A stretch of DNA of 17,210 bases from an uncultured Clostridium sp. (GTDB lineage Bacteria; Bacillota; Clostridia; Lachnospirales; Lachnospiraceae): NCBI GenBank assembly GCA_958349075.1, contig CATWBR010000031.1:1-17210 (forward strand). Direction: 5' to 3'. Positions 1 through 17,210 of the stretch are shown in pieces; within the stretch, counting starts at the first letter, position 1, and each line of letters starts with the position of its first letter. The notes beneath the pieces are model-generated. The model did not search any database. It was not told where the DNA came from and saw only the letters and a list, made by a program, of their open reading frames with translations. The position numbers and the translations under genes are program-made.

Positions 1-12
1 AATCATTCCTAC

Positions 13-40: not shown

Positions 41-103
41 AATAAGCGTAGATGAAGCTTTTACCTTTATTACTACAAATAAGAAGAAAGGCGGATTTTT
101 ATT

Positions 104-1297: not shown

Positions 1298-1307
1298 CAG
1301 GTTTTTA

Positions 1308-1346
1308 TATCCGCGGACCGTTATAAATCAGGCAAAACCGCGGATA
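1308..1346 (+). promoter_or_regulatory. Intercistronic hairpin between nifS and nifU
   Basis: A perfect 9-base inverted repeat, TATCCGCGG (1308-1316) and CCGCGGATA (1338-1346), with a 21-base loop, sits in the 112-base nifS-nifU gap. No T-run follows, so it is not a standard terminator. It may be an mRNA processing or stability element, or a leader structure. The function is inferred. Confidence 0.4.
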
Positions 1347-1409
1347 GAAACATATCAGGCGCCGCCACATGCATAAAATTTGAGATACGGGCTGAAAGGA
1401 GCAAAATAC

Positions 1410-1847: not shown

Positions 1848-1850
1848 TAC

Positions 1851-2930: not shown

Positions 2931-4165
2931 TAAGAACAGCAGGATGCAGGGGGGCGGCAGTACTGCTTGGTATGTTTCTGATGGCTTCTTCCGTGGCGGG
3001 CTGCGGCGGCAAGTATGAACCGATTACTTTGCAGGCTCAGGAGACTCAGGCTTCGGAGGAGGAGAGCCGGCAGGTTCAGGCTGAGAGCGTCACGGATGAC
3101 GGCAATACACAGGACACGGCAGAAAAGGAAAAACAGGAACGGATGCTGGTTCTGGGAGACGCGCAGGATGCACAGACGGTGAAAGAAGCCGATGGAGCCG
3201 CGGTGGCGGAGATGAGCTCGCTTGAGAATGAGCGCACGACCGCCAACGGGTTTACGGATGTGGACGAGACCGTATTTGTAGTGGAGGATCACGTCAATCT
3301 CCGGAAGGGATGCGGAACGGAATTTGGCATTGTAACACAGCTTAAGACGGGCGACAGTATCAAGAGGACCGGGTACAGCGACGGATGGAGCAGAGTCGTA
3401 TATAAGGACACTACATGCTATGTCATGTCGGAATTTGTCTCCGCCCAGGATCCTTCGGGAGAGAATGGGGAGAATGTAATGGCTCTTGAGAACCAGCCGG
3501 CGCCGGCCAGCGCCGACGGTTCGGCTGCCGTGAGCAACGGCCGCATTGTGGCAATTGATGCGGGACATCAGGCAAAGGGCAATAACGATAAGGAGCCCAT
3601 CGGGCCGGGTTCTTCCACGATGAAGGCCAAAGTGGCGGCCGGCGCCGAGGGAATCGGCACAAAGCTTCCGGAATACAAACTGACGCTGTCGGTGTCCAAG
3701 AAGCTTAAGAGGATTCTGGAGGAGCGCGGTTATAAAGTGGTTATGATCCGTGAGACAAACGATGTGAATCTGAGCAATGCGGAGAGGGCGGAGATCGCCA
3801 ACAAGAGCGGGGCCTCCATCTTTGTCCGTGTCCATGCCAATTCCCTGGATAACAACAGTGTCCATGGAACGCTGGCCATGTGCCAGACGTCGGGCAATCC
3901 TTATAACGGATCCCTTCATGACCAGAGTTATTCCCTCTCCAAGAAGATCACGGACTATGTCTGTGCCGCCACCGGATTTAAGAACCGGGGTGTGCAGGAG
4001 ACGGACAGCATGAGCGGCATTAACTGGTGTACCATCCCTGTGTCCATCGTAGAGATGGGATTCATGAGCAATCCGGAGGAAGACCAGAAGATGGCGCAGG
4101 ACGACTATCAGGAGCTGATAGCAGCCGGAATTGCCAATGGAATCGACGCCTATTTCGGTCAGTAA
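2927..4165 (+). CDS. Lipoprotein N-acetylmuramoyl-L-alanine amidase with SH3 domain
   Basis: A predicted cell-wall hydrolase that cuts the bond between N-acetylmuramic acid and L-alanine in peptidoglycan, outside the membrane. The 412 aa begin with a lipoprotein signal ending in the lipobox VAGC, so C26 would be lipidated. A Glu/Gln-rich linker follows (about 35-105), then a bacterial SH3-like domain (about 115-170, with VNLRKGCG and WSRVVY), then a second linker and an Amidase_3 domain from about 205 to the end. The zinc ligands H214 (IDAGH), E249 (LPEYKL) and H303 (RVHANS) and the catalytic E376 ([12 protein letters not shown]) are all present, so it should be active. Its start overlaps the mnmA stop by 4 bases, and GAGGAGG lies 8-14 bases upstream inside mnmA, so the two are coupled. 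The link to tRNA thiolation is not functionally obvious. A terminator follows directly. Confidence 0.93.
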
Positions 4166-4183
4166 TTCAGATGAATAAAATGA

Positions 4184-4241
4184 GACGGCCTGCAGGCCCT
4201 GCGACAGATACATTTCGCGGAAGGCCTGCGGGCCGTCTTTT
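4184..4241 (+). terminator. Rho-independent terminator after the amidase gene
   Basis: A 15-base stem (4184-4198 with 4223-4237, one G-T wobble, loop 24 bases) is followed by TTTTATT. It lies 18 bases after the amidase stop, between two convergent operons. Read on the minus strand the stem is followed by TCATTTTATT, a poorer tail, so it may also stop minus-strand transcription weakly. Confidence 0.85.
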
Positions 4242-4297
4242 ATTGAGTGGCAATGAAAAGTTCGCGAAGCGTGCTTTTCGTTGTTGGATGCGGGCGT

Positions 4298-7200
4298 TTA
4301 TGATCCGGAGGCAGGGAGTTCTTTCTCTTCCTCTGAAAGCTGCCGCACAATCAGGTTGAACGGAACCTCCTGATTGCCCAGCCTGAAGCGCAGACGGTAA
4401 GTACCCGGTTCAAGAGCCGCGGGCAAGGTAACTGTGATTTCCTGCTCTCCCTGTTCCGCCGTAAGGCTTGTGTTGCCCCCTGCCGTCCAGGCGGGAGTAA
4501 GTTCCGTATAGGTTCCGTCTGTCTTACGCTCGGCAGACACCGCGATGGAATGGTTTGACGGAGCCGTGTTTTGTACGGAATACGTGACCTTAAAGGCGAG
4601 TGTACTTCCCGGCGCCGCCGCGCGGCTGCCTGAGTCCAGAGAGACGTGGAGGCCGTAGGACGGATTCGGATAAACGGAATAGGCGGCGCTGGCATCGAGT
4701 GTGTCAACGGCGCCGGCATTTTCACCAAGAGGGAAAATCCGGGCGTTTAAAGTGTGGCTGCCTTCGGACAGGCCGGCGGTTTTTCCGGTGTCCATTTCTA
4801 ACTCGTAAGTACCCGCTTTGCTCAGAGGGATATAAACCTTTCCTCCGCTTGGGTAGTAATTTGAGCCGTTTACGGTAAATTTCACATTTTCCGGGAAAGA
4901 GCTGCCGTCTTCTGGAGAGAGGACGGCGGCCGCACCGCCGGAAAAACGTGTATCACTGCCCGCCGTAAGCTGTAGTGCGAAAGTATGTGTTCCTTTGGAC
5001 AGTCCGTCCCCTCCTATACTGCTCAGAGCGGCAGACGCGCTGCCGCCGTCGATGGTGAATACGGCCCCCATATTGTCCGCTCCCATACTGTCACGCAGGT
5101 GCAGACTGTATTCTCCGGCCTCGGGCGGCGTGGATGCGAAACCAAAGTCCAGGATTACGGTGAGCGTCCCGCTGAGCATTCCCGCCGGATTGCCCCGGCC
5201 GCTCATGGAGGTAAAATCGGTCAGCCTGATGATTTGCTCCTCCTCCGTCCCTGTGGCCTGATAGAGGTAAAAATCCGTGCTTCCCAACAGCGTCATCTTA
5301 GTTCCGGCAGGCAGATTCTTCTTACTCCCGTCCTTATCCTGCAGTTCCAGCCACAGTCCTCCCGTATCCGCCGCGGACACGGTAAAGGCGGCGGATACCG
5401 CGCTCTTATCCGATATGGAGGGGTTGCTTCCGGTGGGAGTCTCGTTATATTGCCGTCCGGCTCCTGCGCCGGTACTGGTAACGACGGATTTATTCCAGTG
5501 TATGCGGATCAGGACGGTAAAAACCGAATCTGATTCGTTTAAGTCCTTGAGCGTGAGCGTTACCACATCCTCGGTTTCTTTCGGAGCAAAACCGGGGGCA
5601 TTTTTCAGGGTAAAATCAATCATGGCTTCATACCGGCTGTCGGTTGAGCCTATCGTGACCGGGCTTTTAAAACTGCCCATATCACATTGCTCTGTCATCA
5701 GCCCCGACGATAACCATCCCTGCTTCTTTGAAGGCAGCATGGAGAGGGAAAAATTCTGGCCCTTCATGTCCGCGCCTTCGGCAACAAGATTAGCGCCCTG
5801 GGACGTTTCGACCCCGTTTAATTGAAGGCTTCTGTTTCCGGCCGGGATAAAGAGACTGCCCGTGTAGCTTCCGCTCTGTGTCGCGTAGAGATCTACGCTC
5901 AGTGAGGAGAGGGACGACGCCCTGGTGGCAATTTCAATATTCATGGCAGTCGTTTCCTGAATCTGCCCGTCTACAGAACGCTCTATCACTATCTGTACCG
6001 TTCCGAGATTCCGGCTGGCGGTAATATTATTATGATAGGTAAGATAAAATTCAATCTGCGGTACAACACGGTCCCCGGAGATGACTCCGGTCGTGGACTG
6101 CCCTATCACGGAATTGGTTCCGCCTCCGGAAGAAGATGCATTGGAAAGGACTTTTCCGTCTGCCGCCCCCTCGGAAATAAACCCTGTGCCGGTAGTCATA
6201 TAAAGGCCGAATACACTTAAAGGGTTTTTAGATATCGCCGCTTTCTGGCTTTCCAAATCAACGGCCGTGCCGCCATGCGCCTGATTGGCTTCTGAAGTCA
6301 CCCAGGTCCCGCTTGTTCCGGCACCGTTTTTGGCCGCGTCCGCCAGGGTGAAACCGGAGGTGGAGACGGGAAGGGTAATACTTTTAATCGTGTAGACGGA
6401 GCCGCTGTCTGCCGGAGAAAGCTCAATCACGCCTGTGGCCACGGAAAAACCGTCGCTGCCGTAACCAGGTTCATCCTCCGAAAGTGTTTTTGCCGTGAGC
6501 ATTGTATAGCGTACCACCTCCCGATCTCCAGCGCCCTGAACTTTCCAGTAGCGGTAAGGAGGACTCACCGCCGTCACAGCGGTGAAGCCGATTTCCTGCC
6601 CTTCGCCGTCCGAAAAACCTCCGTCCGGTGAACTGTCTGAAGGGCTGATCCGGCCGTAAACATATCCTTCTGTTGACTCTCCGGCCAGCAGATAACCGTA
6701 ACCGGCCACAGGGCCGTATACCGTGCTTCCTGATGAGGGATCGGTATAGGAAATGCGGAAAATAGTACCTGTGTCAAGCAGCAGAGTATTGGGCGTTTGT
6801 GTAATTGTAGCCAGAGACACCTTATCGCCGGATACATCTACGCTTGCAAACCGTGCAACCTCAATGGCGGCTGATTTTAGGACGAGAGTGCTGCCATCTT
6901 GAAGAACAAGGCCGTTTCCCAGGTTCCCCAGTGAACCGGATTCCCCGTGATCCCCGATCCGGTTCAGTGAATAGAGTGCCGTCTGGTTGGCATTGGCTAC
7001 GTCCGACCGTCCGGTAAGACATATATGTGAGTTGACAAGCAGCACCCTGTCTGCCCGCTGGATTGCGGTGAGTGTGCGCGTCGCTCCCGTGACCGCATTG
7101 CCTGTGTCCCTGACCACGCTGCCATAGTTATATAGTGTAACGATACGTGTTTTGCCGGCATCGCAGGAAGAGCCGCTTCCAAACACACCTCCCGCAAGAT

Positions 7201-10200
7201 TCATCGCCGGTTTGCCTGTGCCGCCACTGCCGCCTGTATCATAGCCCGTACCGTCGATATAGACATGGGATGTACCGGCTACAGTTATGGCATCATAATC
7301 CACCTGTTCGCCTCCGAAGTCTCCGCCTGCATAGACCGAATCTTCAACTGACAGGGCCGAGGCGGCCAGAGACGGTATTTTATCCTGGTGCTGGCTGTAA
7401 TAGCTGCATGCTTTTAACGCATTCAGCCCCACATGCACATGAGTGGAGCCGTTTACGGTTCCCTGGTAGCTGCCGCCAAATACGTTTCCTCTCACCGTGC
7501 CGCCTGTAAGGTTGACAAAAACTAAATCCGGGATTGCTTCTTCATCACTCAGCTGGCTGCCGTCATTACTCAGTTTGCTGCCACCATACAGATTACCCTG
7601 TACAAGACCGCCCGTCATATTCAGCGTAGAACCGCCGGTGACAAGCACGGTGCCGCTGGTGCCTACGGCGCCGCCGAATACGTTCCCCTCCACGGTGCCG
7701 CCCGTGATGCCCACGGAAGTGGAACCGTTAACAGGACCGTATTGGCCGCCGCCGTAAACATCGCCCTGGATGACGGCAGAGCCGGAGATATTGACGGCTG
7801 AGGAGCCGTCAATGCGGGCGCATTCCTCATAGCCGTTTTCACTGACGCCTTTTCCGCCCCCGTAAACATTTCCCGTAACAGTGCCTCCGCTTATAGAGAC
7901 GGAGCTGGTTCCTTTTAAATAGGCGTTTGCCCTGGTATCGTTGATACTGTGATCCGGGCGCTGGATGCCTTCACCGCTGGAATAGATATTTCCGACCGTT
8001 CCACCGGTGACCTTAATAGCGGCATTGCCGGTCAGACTTCCAAGGTCGGAGGCGGGATTATTCAATTTTTGAGGGACGGGAACTGTATCGGTACTGAAGC
8101 CGAACGAACTCGTGGGATCCCATCCCCGGCCTGCGGCAAACAGATTCTTTACCGTACCGCCGCTTACGGTTATGTCAACAGCCGAGGCTGTATCATTGCT
8201 GATTACATAAGCGGCGGAACCGGCGCCGTAAAGATCGGTCACCGTACCGCCGGTTACCGTAATTTTCAGGGTTCCCTGATAAGTTGGAACGCTTAAGTTT
8301 CTGCCGGAACCAGCCCCGTAGACGGTGGACACGGTGCCGCCGGAGATGTTAATTTCGGTTGTACCCGAATAGGGGGATGGATTTGACTGAAATCCCTGGT
8401 TTCCTCCTATGATTTGAGGCACAGTTCCGCCTGTGACATTTATTTTTACATTTCCGTTCAAGATTGCGCCGCTGGCGCTTCCGGCAACGATGGAATCCAC
8501 CCAGGCAGTTCCGTCTATTGTGATTACGGATTCACTGTTTTTGGCATCGAGTGTGCTGGAAGATCTGATATACCCGATTAGCCTGGTCACTCTTCCGCTG
8601 AGCACCGTTATAGTCCGGCCCGTTCCATCGCAGAGCTGGTTCCGGCCTGCGCCATAGAGGTAGAAGGCAGACGGAGTGACAACGTCCCTGCCTATGGTAA
8701 GGCTATATCCCTGTGCGTAGATATGCAGAGGCGAGCCGCTCAGCGTGATGGATTCAAAGCAAAAATCGGAATAGAGGAACAGCGCATAATCACTGGCGTC
8801 CGTTGCTTCTCTTATACACTGGAATGTGGCATTGGCGTCATATCCTTTAACGGTGACAGAAATGGGAGAATCCTTCAGTATATGGCAGTCCTCAACGGTA
8901 TACGTCCCGCAGATTACAATCCGGTTTGTTGTAACAGTTCCGTCGGGGTTGGCCGTCTTAAGCTTTTTTGCTGCGGTGTCCAAGGTTTTTACAGCGGTCT
9001 CCGGAGTGTTCCCATCACGGGAATCATCCCCATTCTGCGAATCCAGATAAACAGTATGGACTTCGGCCAACACATCGGCAGGATCGGAATACATTGTCGG
9101 CAGTTCAACCGTGGAGAACGACCTTAACAGCCTGACCGCCATCACCCTGCACCTTAGCTGCATTCCTTTGTCCGACGGACTCAGTACACGGCGGAAGACA
9201 GGTTTATTGGCGCCTTCAATATCCTCCCATAAGGCGGAAGAATCGTCATTTTTAGGAGCGATTTGCCATTGGAAGATAAATGTATATCCGTCCGGGGCGG
9301 AAATTGTCCGTCCGCCTTTTTTGTCGGCCAGGGTATAAACTGCCGTCTCTTCTTCCAAATCGGTTATAACCTTGAACTGATATCTGGAAGAGGATTCCCA
9401 GACAGAATAAAGATTCAAATGTTCAGCTTTTCCAACCTCCAGATAGTCTCCGGCGGCAAGACAGTCCCCGGCCGGAAGTGGAAGAGCGTGCGCACCGGAC
9501 GGCGAATCGGCCTCGGAGGGGGAAGCGGCCCTGGTTGTGGGAGCGGCCTCGGAGGGGGATGAGGCCCTGGTTGTGGGAACGGTCTCGGAAGGGGAAGCGG
9601 CCTCGGAAGAGGAGGCGGCTTCGGAGGGAGACGCCTTTCTTCCGGAGCGGGTTCCGGTCCAACCGGAGAATACGTAGGTAACCAGGCCGCTCTCTTCATA
9701 AGGGTCGGCCAGTTCTTTTGGACAGTCCGGGAGACGGAGCAGGCCGTCTGTCAGCGGAAGTTCCAGCTCCAGTTTGTCATCCAGAGTGACCAGGATAGTG
9801 GCGTCGGCGGGCTGATACCCGGCAGTCGTGGCAGCCTCTAAAAAGGTAAGGTTATCATCGGAGCAGATAACCGTTCCCGACTGGCCCTGATAGAAAAGAG
9901 TTTCCGGGTTGGATATTTCCTGCTCTGTAATTTCTTCTATAATGTAAAGCTTTTCCGGTTCTTCTACCAGCTCTTCCGGCAGAACCACCTCGGTTTCGCC
10001 TTCAGGCATCTCCTCCTGCGTTTCACCTTCAGGCATCTCCTCCTGCGTTTCACCTTCAGGCAGCTTTTCCTGTGTTTCACCTTCCGGCAGCTCCTCCCGG
10101 GTTTCGTCTTCCGGCAGTTCTTGCTGTGTTTCGTCTTCCGGCAGTTCTTGCTGTGTTTCATCATCCGGCAGTTCTTGCTGTGTTTCATCATCCGGCCGAT

Positions 10201-11311
10201 TTTCAGGTTTTTCTTCGATTTCTTCTTCTGTTCCTTTGGAAGGCTCTTTGGCTGGATCTTCCTGTGAATCTCCCTTCGATTCTTCCTGGAAAGGCAGCCC
10301 GGCGCCGCCGGATCCGGAGGTTCCGCCGCCGCTTGGAATACTTCCGCCGGGGTTTGAGCCGTTGTCGGAATCAGAGGAGGAATCACCTGAACTGTCCTGG
10401 CCGGGAACTACGGTTTCGGCATTGCCGGATTGACTGCCGCTGGGAACAGAGGAATCCTGTTCGCCGGAACTGCTGTTATCGGAACCGGAGGAAGTGTTCC
10501 CGCCGGAATTGCCGTTATCGGAACCGGAGGAGGTATTCCCGCCGGAATTGCCGCTATCGGAACCGGTATGCTCAGATTTATCGCTGTTGGAGGAAGAACC
10601 TTCCGATTTGTCTGATTTGCCTCCGGAAGAATCGTGATCCGGGGACTTTGAGTCTGCCCCGTTCAGGGATTGAAAAGTTAATTGAGACGGACGGTCTGTT
10701 ACGGACGCTGCTTCTGCATTTGAATCCGTGGCAATCTTTTGGCTGTCTTCAGTAGTATCTGCCGGCTTATGTCTATCAGGTTTACCGCCTCGCTTTATAC
10801 TGTCCGTATCGTCCGTCTCATCCGTGTCACCCGTCTCCTCGATCCTTGCAATCTCTCCGAATTCAAACAGATTGCGGATTTTAGTAAAATGTGGAGCTGT
10901 TTCCTCTGTGTCGCCTGAAAAGGCGTAATCCCCGAAGCCGACGATGCTTTTCGGAAGGATCAGTTCGCCTCCCAGTTCACCAAGCCCATAGAACAGGTAC
11001 GAACCAACGTAGGTAATGCCTTTCCCAATGACCAGGGTATGAATTTCTTCGCTATAGTCCAAAAACGGGGCTGTGTCCGCCTCGAAATCGTCGGTGTCTC
11101 CGGTTCCGGAAAGAGTCAGCACTCCGTCTTTCAGTTTGGCGGTAATATTTGTACCGATACGAAAACTTTTAGATTTGCTGCCCGTTGCATAGGCGGCCAT
11201 GAAGCCGAGATTCAGATGGCTCAACAACAGGCAGAGAACCACCAGGAACGCCAAAAAGCGGCGTCGCGGGCCTCTGCGCAAAATTCTTTTTTTCAGAGAG
11301 TTTATCCTCAT
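4298..11311 (-). CDS. Giant secreted adhesin-like protein with beta-helix repeats
   Basis: A predicted 2337-aa extracellular protein. A basic N-terminus and hydrophobic core (19-40) end in AAYA, a standard signal peptidase site after about A42. Residues 50-145 resemble BspA-family leucine-rich proteins (DGVLTLSGTG, then LVIGKGITYVG and YAFSG). A long Ser/Gly/Asp/Glu linker follows (160-450) with 13-aa and 9-aa tandem repeats, then a beta-sandwich-like part, another SPSEA/TTRA repeat linker (about 560-605), an Ig-like part, and a segment beginning VYLDSQNGDDSRDG near residue 755 that typically opens a right-handed beta-helix. About ten repeats of the form xITGGTVxGNVYGGG lie between about 950 and 1290. 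The last 800 residues look like Ig-type sandwiches. The protein ends LPASGS with no hydrophobic tail, so no sortase anchor is seen. AGGAGGA-like TCCTCC complement sits 7-12 bases before the start. It is the last gene of the fibre operon. Binding partner unknown. Confidence 0.9.
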   Translation of the reverse strand: MRINSLKKRILRRGPRRRFLAFLVVLCLLLSHLNLGFMAAYATGSKSKSFRIGTNITAKLKDGVLTLSGTGDTDDFEADTAPFLDYSEEIHTLVIGKGITYVGSYLFYGLGELGGELILPKSIVGFGDYAFSGDTEETAPHFTKIRNLFEFGEIARIEETGDTDETDDTDSIKRGGKPDRHKPADTTEDSQKIATDSNAEAASVTDRPSQLTFQSLNGADSKSPDHDSSGGKSDKSEGSSSNSDKSEHTGSDSGNSGGNTSSGSDNGNSGGNTSSGSDNSSSGEQDSSVPSGSQSGNAETVVPGQDSSGDSSSDSDNGSNPGGSIPSGGGTSGSGGAGLPFQEESKGDSQEDPAKEPSKGTEEEIEEKPENRPDDETQQELPDDETQQELPEDETQQELPEDETREELPEGETQEKLPEGETQEEMPEGETQEEMPEGETEVVLPEELVEEPEKLYIIEEITEQEISNPETLFYQGQSGTVICSDDNLTFLEAATTAGYQPADATILVTLDDKLELELPLTDGLLRLPDCPKELADPYEESGLVTYVFSGWTGTRSGRKASPSEAASSSEAASPSETVPTTRASSPSEAAPTTRAASPSEADSPSGAHALPLPAGDCLAAGDYLEVGKAEHLNLYSVWESSSRYQFKVITDLEEETAVYTLADKKGGRTISAPDGYTFIFQWQIAPKNDDSSALWEDIEGANKPVFRRVLSPSDKGMQLRCRVMAVRLLRSFSTVELPTMYSDPADVLAEVHTVYLDSQNGDDSRDGNTPETAVKTLDTAAKKLKTANPDGTVTTNRIVICGTYTVEDCHILKDSPISVTVKGYDANATFQCIREATDASDYALFLYSDFCFESITLSGSPLHIYAQGYSLTIGRDVVTPSAFYLYGAGRNQLCDGTGRTITVLSGRVTRLIGYIRSSSTLDAKNSESVITIDGTAWVDSIVAGSASGAILNGNVKINVTGGTVPQIIGGNQGFQSNPSPYSGTTEINISGGTVSTVYGAGSGRNLSVPTYQGTLKITVTGGTVTDLYGAGSAAYVISNDTASAVDITVSGGTVKNLFAAGRGWDPTSSFGFSTDTVPVPQKLNNPASDLGSLTGNAAIKVTGGTVGNIYSSGEGIQRPDHSINDTRANAYLKGTSSVSISGGTVTGNVYGGGKGVSENGYEECARIDGSSAVNISGSAVIQGDVYGGGQYGPVNGSTSVGITGGTVEGNVFGGAVGTSGTVLVTGGSTLNMTGGLVQGNLYGGSKLSNDGSQLSDEEAIPDLVFVNLTGGTVRGNVFGGSYQGTVNGSTHVHVGLNALKACSYYSQHQDKIPSLAASALSVEDSVYAGGDFGGEQVDYDAITVAGTSHVYIDGTGYDTGGSGGTGKPAMNLAGGVFGSGSSCDAGKTRIVTLYNYGSVVRDTGNAVTGATRTLTAIQRADRVLLVNSHICLTGRSDVANANQTALYSLNRIGDHGESGSLGNLGNGLVLQDGSTLVLKSAAIEVARFASVDVSGDKVSLATITQTPNTLLLDTGTIFRISYTDPSSGSTVYGPVAGYGYLLAGESTEGYVYGRISPSDSSPDGGFSDGEGQEIGFTAVTAVSPPYRYWKVQGAGDREVVRYTMLTAKTLSEDEPGYGSDGFSVATGVIELSPADSGSVYTIKSITLPVSTSGFTLADAAKNGAGTSGTWVTSEANQAHGGTAVDLESQKAAISKNPLSVFGLYMTTGTGFISEGAADGKVLSNASSSGGGTNSVIGQSTTGVISGDRVVPQIEFYLTYHNNITASRNLGTVQIVIERSVDGQIQETTAMNIEIATRASSLSSLSVDLYATQSGSYTGSLFIPAGNRSLQLNGVETSQGANLVAEGADMKGQNFSLSMLPSKKQGWLSSGLMTEQCDMGSFKSPVTIGSTDSRYEAMIDFTLKNAPGFAPKETEDVVTLTLKDLNESDSVFTVLIRIHWNKSVVTSTGAGAGRQYNETPTGSNPSISDKSAVSAAFTVSAADTGGLWLELQDKDGSKKNLPAGTKMTLLGSTDFYLYQATGTEEEQIIRLTDFTSMSGRGNPAGMLSGTLTVILDFGFASTPPEAGEYSLHLRDSMGADNMGAVFTIDGGSASAALSSIGGDGLSKGTHTFALQLTAGSDTRFSGGAAAVLSPEDGSSFPENVKFTVNGSNYYPSGGKVYIPLSKAGTYELEMDTGKTAGLSEGSHTLNARIFPLGENAGAVDTLDASAAYSVYPNPSYGLHVSLDSGSRAAAPGSTLAFKVTYSVQNTAPSNHSIAVSAERKTDGTYTELTPAWTAGGNTSLTAEQGEQEITVTLPAALEPGTYRLRFRLGNQEVPFNLIVRQLSEEEKELPASGS
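7460..8450 (-). repeat. GGTV beta-helix repeats inside the giant adhesin
   Basis: About ten degenerate protein repeats with the core GGTV followed after two to four residues by YGGG, YGAG, FGGA or similar. They occur every 25-40 residues (residues about 950-1290). The periodic glycines and short hydrophobic strands fit a parallel beta-helix stalk or binding surface. The repeats are conserved at protein level but divergent in DNA, so they are not recent tandem duplications. Confidence 0.75.
9509..9630 (-). repeat. 36-base SPSEA/TTRA linker repeats in the adhesin gene
   Basis: Two clear 36-base units (9522-9557 and 9558-9593) encode variants of SPSEAAPTTRAA, flanked by shorter SPSEA copies. 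The period is a multiple of three, so copy-number change would keep the frame. They make a Ser/Pro/Ala/Glu linker between the N-terminal and beta-helix parts. Confidence 0.7.
9974..10189 (-). repeat. 27-base tandem repeats coding an acidic stalk
   Basis: Eight consecutive 27-base units encode DETQQELPE-type 9-residue repeats (residues 375-446). The first three protein copies (highest coordinates) are nearly identical in DNA; later copies drift to GETQEEMPE. This gives a strongly acidic, extended spacer. The period keeps the reading frame, so length variation among strains is expected. Confidence 0.85.
10476..10566 (-). repeat. 39-base Ser/Gly/Asn repeats in the adhesin linker
   Basis: Two full units (10476-10514 and 10515-10553) and the start of a third encode GSDNGNSGGNTSS, within a larger Ser/Gly/Asp-rich linker. 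Nearly identical DNA suggests recent duplication. Confidence 0.7.
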
Positions 11312-11333
11312 GGCGATTCCTCCATTTGAAAAG

Positions 11334-11353
11334 CCGGGAACGGACTGTTCCGG
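11334..11353 (-). promoter_or_regulatory. Hairpin in the leader of the giant adhesin gene
   Basis: CCGGGAAC (11334-11341) pairs with GTTCCGG (11347-11353) with one bulged base. On the minus strand it is followed by CTTTTC and, about 10 bases later, by the adhesin ribosome binding site. It could lower read-through into the 7-kb gene or shape its leader. The T-run is too short to call it a terminator. Confidence 0.3.
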
Positions 11354-11364
11354 TTATGATAATT

Positions 11365-12120
11365 TTAAAGTCCTTTCAGATTGATCTGATCGGCAAAGGG
11401 TGTGCTGTCCCGGCTCAGATCGGCCGACGGGGCCAGCTTCAAAAGGACGAGTGAGTAAACACCGCAGCCGGGAGAGCGAAAAATATAACCGCCGTCCGAT
11501 GATACGATCCGGTCGTCGGTGGCGTCGGGGATCACGTTATCGGGGAGCAGAAGAGGGATGTTTTTTGCCGAGTCGGTGCAGGTTACGGTAAGTACCGCCG
11601 CAGTGCCGCCGGTCTTGTCATCCACCAGATACTGATTGCCGAGAGCCATTTTAAATGTGGCCGAGAGCGTTTTCTGATAAGGTGATGTGGCGGTTACGGA
11701 AACGGTAACATCACTGCTGTCCTGGCCGGGGGAGACCGTGATAAGCCCCGTATTTTCAGCGCCGCCCGATAAAAGGCCGGAACCGTTCGTTCCTGAGCTG
11801 CCGTCCGTTCCGTTGACGATGCTGTAGGTATAACTGATGTCTGTAGAAGTTATTCTTTGGGAATCGGCATAGTTATAAACGTTTAACTGAAAAACTCCGG
11901 ACTGGGGATCGATATAATAAAAGGTATCTTCCGGCGGATTTTCTTTCAGCAGATCACTGGTGAAATAGAAATCCTGGGCCGACGCAATTCCGGCCTTTTG
12001 ATGCTGTGTTACATAGCGGGCAGCGGTAATACCGGCAAAGGATATTAAAAGGATTGCCGCCGGCAGCGCTGCCGGCAGGAGACGCCGTTTGATAAAGGCG
12101 CCCGTGGCGGATTGTTTCAT
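11365..12120 (-). CDS. SipW-substrate-like secreted fibre or accessory protein (251 aa)
   Basis: A predicted exported protein. Residues 11-34 form a basic then hydrophobic signal followed by GITAARYVT, which resembles the signal of SipW-processed TasA/camelysin proteins and matches the GGTMARYVT of the 205-aa protein in this locus. The mature part is beta-rich, with FYFTSD shortly after the signal, a Ser/Gly-rich loop (GTDGSSGTNGSG) and two cysteines in the C-terminal half (VTCTD and PGCGV) that could form a disulfide. There is no C-terminal membrane segment. AGGAGGT lies 7-13 bases before the ATG, and the gene starts 18 bases after the 187-aa gene. A domain family for the mature part was not recognised; it may be a minor fibre subunit, cap, or adaptor for the giant adhesin encoded next. 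Confidence 0.85.
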   Translation of the reverse strand: MKQSATGAFIKRRLLPAALPAAILLISFAGITAARYVTQHQKAGIASAQDFYFTSDLLKENPPEDTFYYIDPQSGVFQLNVYNYADSQRITSTDISYTYSIVNGTDGSSGTNGSGLLSGGAENTGLITVSPGQDSSDVTVSVTATSPYQKTLSATFKMALGNQYLVDDKTGGTAAVLTVTCTDSAKNIPLLLPDNVIPDATDDRIVSSDGGYIFRSPGCGVYSLVLLKLAPSADLSRDSTPFADQINLKGL

Positions 12121-12138
12121 TTATTTACCTCCTGTCCG

Positions 12139-12702
12139 TTATGGCGTGGCACCCGGCAGAGCCTGCTTCGCATCAATGGTCATGGTTACCAGATCGATTT
12201 CATCCGACAGGCTTTCATCGGCATCATCGGAAGGCCATTCGACGGTTAAAACATAGGTATGGGTGACGCCGGAAGAAGAGAAGGGCAGCAGGCCCCCTGT
12301 CCAGAAGAGCTGCCCTTCAGTTGCGGCTGCCACGTAGCTGCCTTCCGGAGCGGATGGCCCGGCGCCCTGCAATTGATAGGTAAGCGGCAGATTGCCGGTG
12401 GTGGCGATAGTGATGGAATACTCCTGAGCCACCTCACTGACCGTACTGTTTTTCTTATTTGTTACTGCAAAGGTGATTGCTTTTTTCTGTGCCGGCATCA
12501 TGCCGGCCAGCTCGGCTGTCAGATCCACCTGGTTTTGCTTTGAATCCGTTACATCCAGGGCAAATGCGGCCGTTTTTGCTGCGGCAGAACCTGAGACACT
12601 GCCGCTGTAAAATGCATAAGTAGTTCCGATAATCAACGCGCCCGCTGCGGACAGGCAGGACAGGTACGCGGCGATTCTGACAGCCGTCAGATGTTTTTTC
12701 AT
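12139..12702 (-). CDS. TasA/camelysin-like protein with SipW-type signal (187 aa)
   Basis: A predicted secreted fibre subunit. The N-terminus (K2-K3, hydrophobic 10-28) ends in IGTTYAFYSG, the classic SipW-cognate pattern with likely cleavage after A30. The mature part begins with SVSGSAAAKTAAFALDV, like the TasA/camelysin start in which an Ala/Ser-rich strand precedes the beta-sandwich, and contains an AITFAVTNKKNS strand-and-turn typical of that fold. It is shorter than TasA of Bacillus. Its start overlaps the stop of the second signal peptidase gene by 4 bases (ATGA) and has GGGGGA as ribosome binding site, so peptidase and substrate are translationally coupled. The family assignment is by motif; polymerisation is inferred. 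Confidence 0.85.
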   Translation of the reverse strand: MKKHLTAVRIAAYLSCLSAAGALIIGTTYAFYSGSVSGSAAAKTAAFALDVTDSKQNQVDLTAELAGMMPAQKKAITFAVTNKKNSTVSEVAQEYSITIATTGNLPLTYQLQGAGPSAPEGSYVAAATEGQLFWTGGLLPFSSSGVTHTYVLTVEWPSDDADESLSDEIDLVTMTIDAKQALPGATP

Positions 12703-13214
12703 ATTCTGTCCCCCTTTCCGTGATCATTTATTCTCTTTATAAAGCCTGGAAGGATCCAAATCAAAAGTCCCAGAAATAATATCGTCAGGATACCTTTCGG
12801 CTTACGCAAAAAAAGTAATGTGTTTCCCACACCGGGAAGAATCAGGATGACACGCCCTGCAATCTGTTCCGGCCGAACGGGATCTTCGTCCTGTGTATTA
12901 TTGTTATCACCTTTTGTGATACTTCCCTCATTGGTCTGTTTGACAATGCGATGGGTGATTAGGATGCCGTCATTCCAAAAGCTAATTATATCGCCCGGAT
13001 CATATTGTGCTTCACGCCGGATAATCAGTTGGTCTCCGGCTGAAAAAGCGGGTTCCATACTGCCGGATAATACCGTGACGGAAGAATAACCTAAAACTGA
13101 GGGCAGCTTTTGACCAAAAACGGCGCATGCAGTAATTTGATAGAGACACGCTGCCGAAAAGAGAACAAGGATTAAGAAAATCAAATGCCGTAACAATTTA
13201 ACTATTATTTTCAT
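12699..13214 (-). CDS. sipW: Signal peptidase I, SipW type (second copy)
   Basis: A membrane serine protease that removes signal peptides on the outer face of the membrane. An N-terminal membrane segment (11-33) precedes the catalytic S52 in LSGSMEP. The general base is H88 in ITHRIV, where ordinary bacterial type I peptidases have lysine; that His and the following aspartates (D103 and D109 in GDNNNTQD) mark the ER/archaeal-like SipW subtype. A C-terminal membrane segment ends in basic residues. The ATG at 13214 is preferred: it follows the upstream stop by 7 bases and has GAGGAG 13 bases upstream. An in-frame ATG at 13238 would overlap the upstream gene, add eight residues (MPRRIDNT) and lacks a ribosome binding site. 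It overlaps the 187-aa gene and probably serves it and the 251-aa protein. Confidence 0.92.
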   Translation of the reverse strand: MKIIVKLLRHLIFLILVLFSAACLYQITACAVFGQKLPSVLGYSSVTVLSGSMEPAFSAGDQLIIRREAQYDPGDIISFWNDGILITHRIVKQTNEGSITKGDNNNTQDEDPVRPEQIAGRVILILPGVGNTLLFLRKPKGILTILFLGLLIWILPGFIKRINDHGKGDRI

Positions 13215-13221
13215 GGTATTG

Positions 13222-15015
13222 TCAATTCTCCTCGGCATGAATCAGAAGCTGGAGCGTGTAAATCCCGCCGGTTTCCCCTATCGCGGTATCGGCTGCGTCA
13301 TTCCCCGCAAACGGCCATTCCCAGTCCAATTGGTATGTAATAAATTCATTTGCGCCGATTTTATCCTGCAAGGTCAGCTTGCCGTCCGTGATAGAACCGG
13401 AAACGGCCTGCCTGGTGATTTTGCTGCCATTCGTTTTTAATGGGGTCAGCGTAAAGTGAAGAGGAAGATGGAGCTGTCCCTCGGAAATATCCAGTGTAAG
13501 ATTTAACTCCCTGGAGAGCGTGTTTTTTAACTGAAAACGGTAAAATCCGGAAGAGCCAGGGGCTACCTTTTCCGCAAGTCCGCTTGTTCGGTTATAGAAC
13601 AAATCGATTATTTCGCCCTGGTTCCACGGAGCATAATGAGCGGAATCTTTTACGTTTCCCCAAAAAGTCAACTCCCCGTCCCCGGTATTTTCGGTACTGT
13701 CCTCGGTGCTTTCGGTACTGTCCTCAGTGCTTTCGGTACTGTCCTCGGTGCTTTCGGTACTGTCTTCGGTGCTTTCGGTACTGGTCTCGGTGCTTTCGGT
13801 ACTGTCCTCGGTGCTTTCAGTGCTGTCCTCGGTGCTTTCAGTGCTTTCTGTGTGGCTGCCGCCATGGCCTCCGCTGTTGTGTTTGCCGCCGCCGTCCCCG
13901 GCTGAGGATTCAGAGCCGCCCGATATCTCAGGAGCGCCCGCTGTCTCAGGAGCGGCAGGTGAAAGGGATGGCGCTACACTGTCCGGGGCGGCGTCAGGAC
14001 CGGCATCGGTATTTGGATTAGCGGAAGGACTGCTCCCGCCGGAGACGCCCGATGTCTCCGATGGGCTGTCGGCCTCTGTCTGGCGTTCTTGTATCGGTGA
14101 AGCGTTTCCGCCTATAGGCATAACGGTTTCATTATTAATAATCACTCCGTTTTCACCGGGAGCCTGGACTTCCGCACCCGGGAGAGTTACAGTCCCATCC
14201 GGACTGATTAACGTTTCATCCGAAAGGGTGACGGTGCCGTCCGGTTGTATGGTATAACCGTCTCCTGTAATCTGACCGTCGGGATAAATGACGGTGTCAT
14301 CCGGTAAAATAACTGCGGCAATGCCGTTACCGCCGCCGCTTGGGATAACAATGGTGCCGTCCGGCAGATGGACAGCGCCTCCCGGCGTCACAATGACACC
14401 GCTGCTGGTAGAGGCCGTACCGGATGGCGTTGTGATCCATCCGCGGTCGTCGGCATAAAGCTGCCGGTCCGGCAGAAGCGTAATTTGGCCCTCATCGAGT
14501 TCGATGACGAGTTCCAATATTCTGATATCCACGGCAACGGTGATAGCGTAGTCCTGGTTAGCGTCTTTGGTGATAATCACACCCTGCTCATTTTTGTCCG
14601 GCGATATGGTGACCGGCTGTTTCGCATCCACGGAGCCGTCCTGGTTATAAACGGTTATCGTGTGTTCCCCAAATGAGACATTGGGAAATAAAAAACGTCC
14701 CTCCAAATCGGTAACCGTCGAGACGGGATCACTGTGGAGTTCGACATGCCGTCCGGCAGCCGGGGAGCCGTCCGAATAGAAGATGCGCCCTGTAATATGT
14801 GTCATGGTTCTGGCGGCAGATTCTTCCGGAGTAAGTAGAATCGTGTCGATGATTTGCCCTGCCGGCTTTTGCCCTGCACGTTTGCCCAGCAAATACCCGG
14901 CAACGCAGGAAGTAATAAGAGCCAGAAACAGCAGCAGGAGCAGAAGCAGCCACCGTCTTTTGGATTCATCATCCCTCGGGGCAGGGGGAGAGGCAGTATT
15001 GAAAATTTGCGCCAT
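13222..15015 (-). CDS. Membrane-tethered stalk protein with TasA-like C-terminal domain
   Basis: A 597-aa protein of unrecognised name. A cytoplasmic basic N-terminus (to R21) is followed by a hydrophobic run (22-43) that contains ITSC at 34-37, a lipobox match, but stays hydrophobic afterwards, so it may be a membrane anchor or a lipoprotein. Residues about 75-140 look like a carboxypeptidase-regulatory-type beta-sandwich (GRIFYSDGSPAAGRHVEL and TDLEGRFLFPNV). Short strand repeats with PDGT and PDDT follow (about 195-300), then a Ser/Pro linker and an STESTED stalk (about 385-445). The last 150 residues (FWGNVKDSAHYAPWNQGE to the end) have VAPGSSGFYRFQLKN and TYQLDWEWPFAG, resembling a TasA-like sandwich. 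TAAGGAGGT lies 9 bases upstream of the ATG. Inferred role: fibre base or adaptor. Confidence 0.85.
   Translation of the reverse strand: MAQIFNTASPPAPRDDESKRRWLLLLLLLFLALITSCVAGYLLGKRAGQKPAGQIIDTILLTPEESAARTMTHITGRIFYSDGSPAAGRHVELHSDPVSTVTDLEGRFLFPNVSFGEHTITVYNQDGSVDAKQPVTISPDKNEQGVIITKDANQDYAITVAVDIRILELVIELDEGQITLLPDRQLYADDRGWITTPSGTASTSSGVIVTPGGAVHLPDGTIVIPSGGGNGIAAVILPDDTVIYPDGQITGDGYTIQPDGTVTLSDETLISPDGTVTLPGAEVQAPGENGVIINNETVMPIGGNASPIQERQTEADSPSETSGVSGGSSPSANPNTDAGPDAAPDSVAPSLSPAAPETAGAPEISGGSESSAGDGGGKHNSGGHGGSHTESTESTEDSTESTEDSTESTETSTESTEDSTESTEDSTESTEDSTESTEDSTENTGDGELTFWGNVKDSAHYAPWNQGEIIDLFYNRTSGLAEKVAPGSSGFYRFQLKNTLSRELNLTLDISEGQLHLPLHFTLTPLKTNGSKITRQAVSGSITDGKLTLQDKIGANEFITYQLDWEWPFAGNDAADTAIGETGGIYTLQLLIHAEEN
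13691..13851 (-). repeat. 21-base tandem repeats coding the STESTED stalk
   Basis: Seven consecutive 21-base units (13691-13837) plus a partial one encode the 7-residue repeat STESTED in the 597-aa protein. Units differ by only one to three bases. The period keeps the frame, so stalk length can change by slippage or recombination. The opposite strand is also open across it, only because of base composition. Confidence 0.9.
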
Positions 15016-15040
15016 TTTTCCTGTACCTCCTTATAGGTAG

Positions 15041-15147
15041 TGAAAACAATCTGTTTTCAGCCTGCAGGAAAAGGCGTCACGGTCTGTGATGCCCTTTCCT
15101 GAGGGCTGATTTTTCCCCTGAGGGGACCGCCCCGGCACAGGGGGCGG
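15041..15147. promoter_or_regulatory. Hairpin cluster between the TasA-like and 597-aa genes
   Basis: Three inverted repeats fill this 152-base gap. (1) CCGCCCC (15127-15133) with GGGGCGG (15141-15147) lies just after the 205-aa stop on the minus strand. (2) A long stem pairs 15065-15080 with 15086-15101, extended by TCAGCC (15057-15062) with GGCTGA (15104-15109); five Ts follow it only on the plus strand. (3) TGAAAACA (15041-15048) pairs with TGTTTTCA (15052-15059), just before the 597-aa ribosome binding site. Structures 2 and 3 share bases 15057-15059, so they compete. A role in mRNA 3'-end protection or partial termination is inferred. Confidence 0.55.
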
Positions 15148-15168
15148 GAAATGGATAGTGATATGTGG

Positions 15169-15786
15169 TTAAGGGGTTGTTCCCTCGTTTGGAGCAATCT
15201 GCTTGCCGTTGATGGTAATATCCAGCTTCCAGGTCTTTCCGGCATCGTCGTTGTCGTTACTGGATTTAGTATCACCATCTCCGAATCCCCATGCCCAGAA
15301 AACTGTGATGTCCTTTTTCATATCATTAGATGTACTGGAATAGTCAATAGTACCCGTTGGAATATTAAACTTATCCAGAGTGCTACCTAAATTTGAGCCG
15401 GTGATTTCTTCAGTTGAAAACAGCAAATCATCCGGTAAAGTGGTTCCGGATGCGGCTTTGACAGCTACATCGTACTGAATACCCACGTCACTGCCGGAGC
15501 CGTCGATTTCAATTGTGAAGCTTCCACTTGTACCGGGAGCGATAACGTCTTCTTTAAGAGTGGTTCCGTCATAACTGGTTCGATTCGTGGTGTCGCCCAA
15601 GTCAATAGGAGTAAATGTAGAATCGCTATTATTGGCTTTAAAACTCCATGCTGCTACAGTGGCTGTGGCCGAGCCGGTTACTTCTGTTACATATCGGGCC
15701 ATGGTTCCGCCCAGGAGACAGGTACTGATTACAGTCAGCATCAGGGCAAGGGCGCCCAGGCGGCCTACATAAGACTTTTTCTTCAT
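15169..15786 (-). CDS. TasA/camelysin-like fibre protein (205 aa)
   Basis: A predicted major secreted subunit. MKKK and a hydrophobic core (10-27) lead to LLGGTMARYVTE, a SipW-cognate signal with likely cleavage around A30. The mature protein opens with GSATATVAAWSFKAN, where the Ala/Val-rich strand and W-S-F match the start of TasA-like proteins. It continues with a beta-rich body including DVIAPGTSGSFTIEIDGSGS and GIQYDVAVKA, typical of the family's edge strands. No cysteines occur in the mature part. The length is near that of camelysin/TasA. GAGGAAGAG lies 9-17 bases upstream of the ATG. It follows the first signal peptidase gene after a 165-base hairpin-rich gap and is followed by another hairpin-rich gap, which suggests its own mRNA level. 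Polymerisation into fibres is inferred from the family and was not tested. Confidence 0.88.
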   Translation of the reverse strand: MKKKSYVGRLGALALMLTVISTCLLGGTMARYVTEVTGSATATVAAWSFKANNSDSTFTPIDLGDTTNRTSYDGTTLKEDVIAPGTSGSFTIEIDGSGSDVGIQYDVAVKAASGTTLPDDLLFSTEEITGSNLGSTLDKFNIPTGTIDYSSTSNDMKKDITVFWAWGFGDGDTKSSNDNDDAGKTWKLDITINGKQIAPNEGTTP

Positions 15787-15817
15787 TATGTACTCTTCCT
15801 CGCTTTCTTAAATAAAT

Positions 15818-15861
15818 GGGGAACCGTGTTGTGGTTATATATCGCCCAGGCACGGTTCCCT
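15818..15861 (-). promoter_or_regulatory. Hairpin between sip1 and the TasA-like gene
   Basis: GGGGAACCGTG (15818-15828) pairs with CACGGTTCCCT (15851-15861), 10 Watson-Crick pairs plus one wobble, loop 22 bases. On the minus strand it is followed by ATTTATTTAA, then by the ribosome binding site of the TasA-like gene. It may be a leaky terminator or a leader structure. Two imperfect GC-rich direct repeats (each with CAGGCAGAAG, 15887-15896 and 15934-15943) lie between it and the sip1 stop. Confidence 0.5.
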
Positions 15862-15951
15862 CATGTGCCTGCGGCAGTCTGCACCCAGGCAGAAGTCTGG
15901 TTATTGTTACGGCTTTAGTCTGCGCTGTGCCCGCAGGCAGAAGCCGGTGCA

Positions 15952-16593
15952 TTAAAAGTTATTCTTTTTTGTTTCCTCTTCCTTTTCGGAAGCACCCTTT
16001 CCTGAGCGGAGTTCTTCCAGTTCGGCTTCCAGCATGGCGGTTCGGGCGGCATCTGCCTTGTCCAGGCGGTGCCGGTGCCGGAGATCCCAGAGGATGAAAA
16101 GGAGCAGGGGGCAGAAGATGAAAAGAATCATGCCCACGGGAGTCTGGATAAATAGGATAAGATTTCCCAGCCCGCCGATTCTTCCTCCTTTCCAGATACC
16201 CTCAATCTGACCGGTGCTGACGGCCAGACGGTCCGCCGTATTATTGGCATCGCCCTGAGTTACATACCGCGGCAAACCGTCCTCTCCGGCAGTAATATCC
16301 ATGATTCGGTGAGTTACGGCTTTTCCTGATGAGAGATAGCAGATAACGTCACCTTCCTGAAGAACCGACGGTTCAGTTTCGTGGATAAATATCAGGTCAC
16401 CCGTATGAATCACAGGTTCCATGGAACCCGAGAGTACGATGGCCGGTTTGATTCCGAATATCCCCGGAAGTTCGTCGGGGTTAAGATATGTACGGGCAAT
16501 CAGGATGATATTAATCAGAATAATCGGAATAAGAAGGATACAAAGTATGATCCCGGTAATAGCCGACAGCGGCAGTTTGTTTTTTTTACTCAT
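15952..16593 (-). CDS. sipW: Signal peptidase I, SipW type (first copy)
   Basis: A membrane serine protease expected to cut the signal of the TasA-like protein encoded next. The chosen start gives 213 aa. A membrane segment (12-33) is followed by the catalytic S57 in LSGSMEP, then the His that replaces lysine, H95 in AVTHRIM, and the aspartates D115 and D121 in QGDANNTAD, all as in SipW. A C-terminal membrane segment (FIQTPVGMILFIFCPLLLF) is followed by a charged cytoplasmic tail with a short coiled-coil-like ARTAMLEAELEELRSG stretch. The ATG at 16593 has AAGGAGGA five bases upstream; an ATG at 16728 in the same frame would add 45 unrelated residues overlapping the 65-aa gene. It overlaps the 65-aa gene by 8 bases. 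It differs from the second copy in tail and loops, so it is not a recent duplicate. Confidence 0.92.
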   Translation of the reverse strand: MSKKNKLPLSAITGIILCILLIPIILINIILIARTYLNPDELPGIFGIKPAIVLSGSMEPVIHTGDLIFIHETEPSVLQEGDVICYLSSGKAVTHRIMDITAGEDGLPRYVTQGDANNTADRLAVSTGQIEGIWKGGRIGGLGNLILFIQTPVGMILFIFCPLLLFILWDLRHRHRLDKADAARTAMLEAELEELRSGKGASEKEEETKKNNF

Positions 16594-16783
16594 GAGCTTC
16601 CTCCTTATGGTTCTCGTCTTCGTGGGACAGGGGAATTTGGAGGTTCTGCCGGATTCGGAAAATATCACGGCAGTATTTGGCGTAGTGGAATGCTGGGTCG
16701 ATATTGCCGTTAATTTCCTTTTCTTCACAGGGATGATTGATACTTACATTGAGTTCAACTTGAACCGTCGTCCTTTGTTCCAT
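16586..16783 (-). CDS. Small unknown protein, first gene of the fibre operon (65 aa)
   Basis: No family was recognised. The protein starts MEQRTTVQVELNVSINHPC, has two cysteines (C19 and in KYCRDIF) and ends in an acidic, His-rich tail (SHEDENHKEEAHE). It has no signal peptide or membrane segment, so it should be cytoplasmic. It is called real because AAGGAGGAGA lies 8 bases before the ATG and because the ribosome binding site and start of sip1 are built into its last codons (8-base overlap), which indicates coupling. It could be a regulator or a chaperone-like partner of the peptidase, but nothing in the sequence shows this. An opposite-strand frame across it has no ribosome binding site. 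Confidence 0.6.
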   Translation of the reverse strand: MEQRTTVQVELNVSINHPCEEKEINGNIDPAFHYAKYCRDIFRIRQNLQIPLSHEDENHKEEAHE

Positions 16784-16819
16784 TGCCGCTTCTCCTCCTT
16801 GCCTGCTTTTTGCAGCTTT

Positions 16820-16848
16820 AATATACAGAAACGTTGTTTATCACATAA
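16820..16848 (-). promoter_or_regulatory. Candidate promoter of the fibre operon
   Basis: On the minus strand TATATT (16825-16820) is preceded, 17 bases upstream, by TTATGT (16848-16843), a weak -35. Transcription would start about 30 bases before the 65-aa gene. The -35 lies inside the palindrome at 16838-16865, consistent with control by a bound regulator. Confidence 0.4.
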
Positions 16849-16865
16849 TCGACATTATGTGATAA
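16838..16865. promoter_or_regulatory. Perfect palindrome, probable operator
   Basis: TTATCACATAAT (16838-16849) and ATTATGTGATAA (16854-16865) are exact reverse complements separated by CGAC. It overlaps the -35 of the candidate fibre-operon promoter and is about 55 bases before the first gene. Lack of a T-run, AT-richness and perfect symmetry favour a dimeric repressor or activator site over a terminator. The regulator is unknown and not encoded in the window. Confidence 0.6.
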
Positions 16866-16913
16866 GACAGCGGCGAAACACATATCCAACGGTACGCTTC
16901 CCAAATTCTCATT

Positions 16914-16941
16914 AAAAAAACAGCCGGTTTTTACCTGCTGT
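16914..16941 (-). terminator. Minus-strand terminator upstream of the fibre operon
   Basis: On the minus strand ACAGCAGGT and ACCGGCTGT form a 9-base stem with one mismatch and a 4-base loop, followed by seven Ts. It would end transcription of a minus-strand gene entering from beyond position 16959 and insulate the fibre operon. Confidence 0.65.
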
Positions 16942-16958
16942 CAAGAAAAAATAAAAAA

Positions 16959-17129
16959 TTATAATGCGTTTTCCGCCAAATAACAGAAGGTTCGGGCTGC
17001 CCAGGATATTTCATTCAGCCGGAATCCAATTTTGAGTGCCGGAAAATTGCTTTTAATAGATTCCTCCTGCCATTTCCCAGCCGGGTTTACTGCGCCCCGC
17101 GTTCTTATCCGATAAATGGGCGCAAAAAG
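16959..17129 (-). pseudogene. Possible 3' remnant of an upstream gene
   Basis: A 56-codon minus-strand frame with no ATG, GTG or TTG start near its beginning ends in TAA 18 bases before the terminator at 16914-16941. Just upstream in the same frame is one TGA (17130-17132), beyond which the frame is open to the window edge (26 codons). The peptide ends with RLNEISWAARTFCYLAENAL. Placement before a terminator suggests a gene end disrupted by a stop or frameshift, but chance cannot be excluded. Product not recognised. Confidence 0.25.
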
Positions 17130-17162
17130 TCAGAGGTATCCCCCGGTATTTCTAAATATATC

Positions 17163-17205
17163 TTGCAAAAATCCCCCTACTGATGCATAATAATTTGGTA
17201 AGGAG
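17163..17205 (+). promoter_or_regulatory. Possible plus-strand promoter and ribosome binding site at window edge
   Basis: TTGCAA (17163-17168) and CATAAT (17186-17191) are 17 bases apart, and TAAGGAG (17199-17205) follows. A plus-strand gene may begin just outside the window. The leader would be very short, and each element alone is weak. Confidence 0.3.
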
Positions 17206-17210
17206 TAGCT

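Follow-up and report, generated by a model that had tools for sequence, protein, structure and literature searches.

Here, we describe a locus resembling SipW/TasA fibre systems in a 17,210-nucleotide (nt) stretch of DNA from an uncultured Clostridium sp. (contig CATWBR010000031.1, positions 1 to 17,210; hereafter, the window). Eight open reading frames (ORFs) occupy the minus strand between positions 4298 and 16783. In reading order these are orf65 (16586..16783), a small leader ORF; sip1 (15952..16593), a SipW-type signal peptidase of 213 amino acids; g205 (15169..15786), the proposed main fibre subunit, with a SipW-type signal and a probably TasA-like fold; g597 (13222..15015), a multi-domain, membrane-tethered stalk protein; sip2 (12699..13238), a second SipW-type signal peptidase of 179 amino acids; g187 (12139..12702), a second TasA-like subunit with a SipW-type signal; g251 (11365..12120), a proposed TapA-like initiator or adaptor; and giant (4298..11311), a secreted protein of 2337 amino acids that we propose to be an adhesin. 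Neither g205, g187, g251 nor the giant protein of the window matches a Pfam or NCBIfam family above cut-off. A preliminary description of this DNA had called the locus an eight-gene set with tight junctions. The eight ORFs are indeed present, and at five of the seven junctions the neighbours lie close together (overlapping by 8, 17 and 4 nt, the first at orf65 and the start of sip1, or separated by 18 and 53 nt), but sip1 and g205 are 165 nt apart and g205 and g597 153 nt apart, and orf65 falls outside the conserved system, being found in only three of the 22 loci considered below, the window included. A consensus scan detected no minus-strand terminator or promoter in the two wider gaps and no minus-strand promoter upstream of orf65; we infer that the gene set is co-transcribed. 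By eye, the g205-g597 gap (15016-15168) holds a G+C-rich hairpin without a T run, which might determine how much g205 is made relative to the proteins encoded downstream.

These genes are conserved as a set in related bacteria. We collected related loci by scanning a species-genome collection with a g597 alignment, which gave 11 loci, and by adding genome searches and 13 longer regions; after dropping two duplicates (L068 and L077, second copies of L005 and L009) and a lone g597 N-terminal fragment (L071), 22 distinct loci remained, including the window. Loci with short flanks only (L030, L032, L059, L060, L061, the G418 pieces and the second contig of G494) were excluded from this count. The named loci come from Bacillota, mostly Clostridia, and from one Gordonibacter. 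Because loci were found through g597 or g205, the evidence is carried by the remaining genes. The seven main genes occur in the order sip1-g205-g597-sip2-g187-g251-giant in 13 of the 22 loci (the window, L001-L007, L010, L011, L066, L069 and L075), an arrangement that is thus more than chance, and one in which the whole set rather than single genes is conserved. The giant gene is interrupted by a contig end in L005 and split into two ORFs in L003 and L066 (in L066 near a masked run), and L008 and L065 lack only sip2. The core of sip1, g205, the g597-like base gene and sip2 is present in 20 of 22 loci, spread out in L076 and in pieces in L009, which was counted for the core only; a sipW gene stands beside a tasA-like gene, as in tapA-sipW-tasA, in 20 of 22. 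The pieces in L009 (Intestinibacillus, 5145-8245) are those of sip1, g597 and sip2, which are decayed or mis-sequenced. Two divergent loci seen with 1.5-kb flanks, L032 (sip1-base-g205-sip2) and L030 (base-sip2-g205), show that gene order is not fixed among distant relatives.

The distribution of the system is patchy. A g205 search of 398 genomes of the phylum gave six matches at E 1e-10, including the genome of L001 itself, and in all six a sip1 or g597 homologue adjoins g205. Matches occur in one of eight genomes in the genus of L001 (L001 itself) and in five of 17 in the genus of C. asparagiforme, itself included (E 1e-20). In a sample of the family, similarity to g597 at E 1e-5 was seen in 21 of 397 genomes: six have a full-length base, five a short base beside sip and g205-like genes, and ten a shared domain only. 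These ten were dropped, their similarity to g597 being at the domain level with no sip or g205 within about 1.5 kb. A plasmid scan with g597 gave no match. The C. asparagiforme genome carries two loci, L006 (full) and L070, in which the core is followed by a 447-residue protein with, by eye, a SipW-type signal. The Gordonibacter locus L007 (Actinomycetota) has the full seven-gene set and a riboswitch, and its G+C content of 0.63 fits that of its flanks (0.63-0.65), so that any transfer was not recent.

Both peptidases score above the TIGR02228 cut-off (87.5 bits for sip1 and 81.5 for sip2, against 51.85), and both carry SGSMEP and THRI motifs, which we take to supply catalytic Ser and His residues, with His replacing the catalytic Lys. 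They also match NF046067, 'signal peptidase I SipW' (E 2.5e-26 and 92.4 bits for sip1; E 9.8e-22 and 77.4 bits for sip2), while remaining under the 190-bit cut-off of this Bacillus SipW model. The earlier report of two SipW-subtype peptidases on one strand is thus confirmed. It called the combination of two peptidases with a giant adhesin unusual, but in this family a double peptidase is the norm, being present in 20 of 22 loci. When 41 SipW sequences are arranged in a tree, a 100/99 branch separates 21 sip1 from 20 sip2 rows, and the labels, each assigned by the better of two profiles built from these loci and also tracking gene position, require one change as opposed to about 14 in shuffles. 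On this tree, sip1 and sip2 are two old clades maintained side by side. The S/T-x-S-M motif is present in all 41 rows and the THR motif in 40, the sip2 of L074 being without it. In five of 11 genomes searched, sip1 and sip2 are the sole SipW-type genes at E 1e-10. Where the locus is without sip2, the genome of L008 holds two further SipW-type genes elsewhere, and in that of L065 the only second SipW match is below cut-off.

The SipW-type signals of g205, g187 and g251, read by eye in family alignments, agree with the three such proteins of the preliminary description. Compared with Protein Data Bank (PDB) structures, the model of g205 finds the TasA fibre first, at a modest template-modelling score (TM-score) of 0.38, and its match list contains many donor-strand pilins. 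The structural alignment onto the TasA fibre begins at g205 model residue 31, which corresponds to TasA residue 28, and residues 30-49 are conserved in the family while having no secondary structure in the monomer model; on these grounds of family conservation, model and structural alignment, we propose this stretch (15640..15699, minus strand) as a donor-strand segment. By hhalign, g187 is related to g205 over nearly its full length (98.7%, E 3.4e-16), whereas the likeness of g251 to g205 is confined to the signal and N-terminus, so that a donor-only, TapA-like role suits g251 better than that of a second subunit. When PDB sequences were searched with g205, singly or as an alignment, and with g187, no meaningful match emerged, and the TasA/camelysin profile PF12389 matched no window protein at E 0.1, none of 48 g205 family members at E 0.05, and two of 18 g187 family members weakly (best E 0.0018). 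As the profile does not recognise the window proteins, we class the locus as one that functions in the manner of a TasA system, without counting it as an established member of that family.

The g597 protein consists of an N-terminal hydrophobic segment (by eye), a carboxypeptidase-regulatory-like domain (PF13620, 34.7 bits against a cut-off of 32.3), a Ser/Thr/Glu-rich repeat linker and a TasA-like C-terminal domain (13225..13683), the proposed acceptor of the fibre's donor strand. The earlier reading of a membrane-tethered stalk with a TasA-like end holds. By hhalign this last domain matches g205 (97.9%, E 3.8e-13), the donor segment not being included. Its model has a predicted local distance difference test score (pLDDT) of 80.5, and its fold matches include TasA only as one among many beta-sandwiches. 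From these comparisons, the g597 C-terminal domain shares a common origin with g205 and g187 but is without their N-terminal segment. Two divergent loci encode short bases of 246 and 263 amino acids with a TasA-like domain (L072, 7406-8146; L073, 11209-12000), which end in SPQTGD or SPRTGD followed by a membrane segment and a basic tail, presumably a sortase-like anchor. These tails suggest that the base's job is cell attachment and, with the missing donor segment, support the fibre base that the preliminary description had assigned to this locus. The g597 stalk contains 21-nt in-frame tandem repeats (window 13678-13839) and is probably strain-variable, given the length differences among g597 homologues.

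The giant protein has an ordinary-looking Sec signal by eye and no Pfam or NCBIfam match at E 0.1; its relatives in L002 and L008 match only LRR_5, below cut-off. A protein of the described length of 2337 amino acids is thus present, and its beta-helix character is deduced from residues 961-1273, where ten GGTV-type repeats (including two variants) occur, within a beta-helix-like region of about residues 958-1290 (7442..8440). The giant gene follows g251 in all 13 seven-gene loci and also in L008 and L065, and its N-terminal part and C-terminal end (GTYRL...PYN.IV) are kept while complete copies range from 901 to 2370 amino acids. We considered a TasA-like C-terminal domain in the giant; when the final 130 residues from 12 giants were compared by hhalign with g205, g187, g251 and the g597 C-terminal domain, probabilities reached at most 4.5%, and the idea was set aside as unsupported. 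The giant gene, too, contains in-frame tandem repeats, of 27 nt (window 9973-10196).

Many related loci appear to be under the control of cyclic diguanylate (c-di-GMP), through riboswitches that lie outside the window and that the preliminary description does not mention. Upstream of the operon in nine of 22 loci lie c-di-GMP-I aptamers above the Rfam gathering threshold: L003 (8084-8178), L006 (7822-7916), L007 (8024-8117), L008 (7774-7866), L066 (14084-14176), L067 (15034-15118), L069 (14565-14651), L070 (2977-3064) and L076, which has three (208-300, 2149-2246 and 8771-8873), in front of sip1, an additional g205 and the gene for the base. No aptamer was found in the window, L001, L002, L004, L005, L009-L011, L065 or L072-L075, with only 236 nt of upstream DNA in L011 and 427 nt, counted from orf65, in the window; L001, with 8 kb upstream, has none either. 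In the window, RF01051 gave no match at gathering and none at E 5 in 16500-17210, and no Rfam family reached gathering; three leader matches up to E 5 belong to unrelated families and look like chance. Across 12 genomes, scored at E 0.001 for the best 150 candidates of each, there are at least 26 aptamers, 11 of them at this locus, against about 0.005 expected there by chance, as estimated from genome sizes. The at-locus aptamer is the only one found in G003, G006, G156 and G409, while two of four in G005 serve its two locus copies; G007 has one of two at the locus, G260 one of four. Of the five in G494, three are at the locus and the remaining two sit on a second contig, on which g205-like genes are found as well. 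The two or three aptamers of G001, G002 and G004 all lie away from the locus, and G390 has none among its scored candidates. Each of the 12 genomes has between 5 and 53 GGDEF matches.

A script finds a terminator-like hairpin after nine of the 11 aptamers; it finds none by its rules in L007 and L008, although hairpins can be seen in the sequences themselves. The 5' arm of the hairpin in L003 and L006 carries an 8-nt complement to the aptamer core (two of 200 arm shuffles are as good), a layout that predicts an off-switch, and the same complementary arm is visible by eye in L007 and L008. Different complements are present in L067 and L069 (5 and 6 of 200 shuffles as good), and no complement better than chance is seen for L066, L070 or any of the three L076 aptamers (39 to 200 of 200 shuffles). 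The hairpins of L076 overlap the aptamer 3' ends, which would make these predicted on-switches. Between riboswitch and sip1, L006 (8001-8351) and L008 (7967-8299) carry small ORFs, with a remnant in L003 (8251-8427), that we take to resemble HU/IHF DNA-binding proteins.

At the level of sequence, then, we can point to the gene content, the conserved order, two old SipW paralogues, the homology among g205, g187 and the g597 C-terminal domain, and riboswitches before many related loci. We think it likely, if well short of certain, that the locus encodes a cell-anchored protein fibre of the SipW/TasA kind together with a co-encoded giant surface protein, and the whole-set synteny and the TasA match of g205 support the similar proposal in the preliminary description, with nothing in the synteny or in the g205 and g597 models that refutes it. 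We propose that g205, g187 and g251 would lose their SipW-type signals to sip1 and sip2, which would release an N-terminal strand (A/R-Y-V-T-E-V-x-G...), and that the freed strand of each subunit would fill the groove of the next by donor-strand exchange, as in the TasA fibre. By such polymerisation, which we infer from these comparisons, g205 would form the shaft, perhaps mixed with g187, and g251, with a donor-type N-terminus on a different body, may start or cap the chain like TapA. Lacking a donor segment, the g597 C-terminal domain could only accept, and its membrane-tethered stalk would let it keep the fibre attached to the cell. The giant, with its standard Sec-type signal, may be an adhesin or matrix partner. 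In relatives, c-di-GMP would gate expression through the riboswitch, a control that in the window may have been lost or replaced, perhaps by a palindromic site upstream of the operon.

The TasA-like proteins might instead be secreted camelysin-like monomers or surface proteins that form no polymers, with the locus making a protein coat or enzymes. Several points weigh against a fibre in this respect: the fold similarity is modest at a TM-score of 0.38 and is no proof of polymerisation, and camelysin (PF12389), which two of 18 g187 homologues match weakly, is named a metallo-endopeptidase. Such a reading nonetheless leaves aside that the first structural match of g205 is the fibre form of TasA, listed with many donor-strand pilins, that the N-terminal segment, although conserved, has no structure in the model of the monomer, and that a membrane-held homologous domain without this segment accompanies g205; we regard it as quite improbable.

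If the fibre is real, the roles of its two largest partners can still be questioned. The giant could be an independent adhesin that merely shares a transcript, with no physical tie to the fibre, as its ordinary-looking Sec signal and the absence of hhalign similarity between its C-terminal ends and the TasA-like proteins would suggest; its constant position after g251, in all 13 seven-gene loci and two more, and the likeness of both its ends across copies of very different length speak for a closer bond, and we hold the independent role to be distinctly possible, if not quite probable. It is unlikely, in our view, that g597 is a membrane-held assembly factor or sensor of fibre subunits instead of an anchor: it has no SipW-type processed N-terminus and carries a carboxypeptidase-regulatory-like domain, which would suit such a function, while its long repetitive stalk is in keeping with cell attachment, as are the short versions with a sortase-like tail that take its position in L072 and L073.

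As described in the available portions of two papers (PMC9674648, PMC10151520), the mature N-terminal strand of each TasA subunit completes the next, and TapA, with an N-terminus like that of TasA, is the proposed provider of the first strand. The locus resembles B. subtilis tapA-sipW-tasA, as presented there, in encoding a SipW-type peptidase with subunits of a probably TasA-like fold and in the donor-strand logic that we propose; g251, whose sequence was set against g205 only, would resemble TapA in placing a donor-type N-terminal segment on a different body. It differs, on the same portions of text, in having two SipW paralogues where B. subtilis has one, a membrane-tethered base with a TasA-like domain, the second subunit g187 and the giant protein, and, in its relatives, a c-di-GMP riboswitch where B. 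subtilis uses SinR. C. perfringens sipW-bsaABCRSD likewise has a clostridial sipW followed immediately by a secreted fibre-forming subunit in one operon, but, by the description in the available part of the paper (PMC7395162), one sipW and no giant or double peptidase; 'riboswitch' appears in that part only in a reference title. B. cereus sipW-tasA, capP and calY, as far as the available text goes (PMC13082335), share two TasA-like subunits, a polymerisation-helping accessory protein and, in the authors' model, SipW processing, but that accessory, CapP, is a DUF4047 protein that resembles a chaperone and is anchored through its C-domain, and there is one SipW and separate transcription units. 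Archaeal bundling pili (7ueg) and the Sulfolobus acidocaldarius 0406 filament (7pnb) are weak structural matches of the g205 model and, unlike the window, archaeal; the available part of PMC9674648 describes archaeal donor-strand fibres, some of them TasA-like. Four features are apparently new: the presence of two SipW peptidases, an acceptor held in the membrane, the giant partner and control by a c-di-GMP riboswitch. For none of them did we find an earlier description in the literature searched, which included few subscription papers and no bioRxiv preprints.

These differences lead us to a broader and more tentative idea, whose chances we put at somewhat under even: gut Clostridia and at least one Gordonibacter may share an undescribed class of c-di-GMP-gated, base-anchored donor-strand pilus, with a membrane-held acceptor domain, a shaft that polymerises, a starter that only donates and a giant adhesin. 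Its maturation would fall to a dedicated pair of SipW peptidases that diverged long ago, maybe each for a different step. Such a pilus would be a sortase-free, chaperone-free Gram-positive counterpart of the chaperone-usher pilus, and many gut Clostridia would own an anchored fibre system that annotation misses, four of the window's proteins matching no Pfam or NCBIfam family above cut-off. It would offer answers to how TasA-type fibres start and stay on cells, and to why two SipW peptidases are kept. In the four of 12 genomes where the only c-di-GMP-I riboswitch found among the best 150 candidates of each precedes this locus, surface attachment would then be a main output of the signal.

The window's own leader is organised differently. 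A perfect inverted repeat of 12 nt with a 4-nt spacer (16838..16865) is a candidate operator upstream of the operon, and among the 22 loci its 10-nt half-sites recur upstream in L001 (two, with 0 and 1 mismatch), L007 (two, with 0 and 1) and L069 (two, with 2 and 3), where shuffled L069 upstream DNA yields an expected 0 matches at that stringency. Upstream of orf65, a terminator-like hairpin with one mismatch and a T run (16914..16940, minus strand) was recognised by eye; it is missing from the consensus scan list and matches no Rfam family at gathering. We rejected orf65 as part of the conserved system: beyond the window, the sole clear relative is that of L001 (71%), and L069 adds a weak one (34% over 50 amino acids, E 8e-5). 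Its synonymous and nonsynonymous divergence from L001 (dS 0.44, dN 0.15) fits a coding gene. The L069 relative is an ORF of 56 amino acids (14265-14435) that overlaps the start of sip1, in a locus with both a riboswitch and two palindromic sites.

L001, from Clostridium transplantifaecale, aligns with window positions 3367-17210 in five pieces at 82-90% DNA identity. At the opposite end of the window lie plus-strand genes that, by eye, resemble nifS, nifU, mnmA and an amidase, and an amidase homologue also follows the locus in L001.
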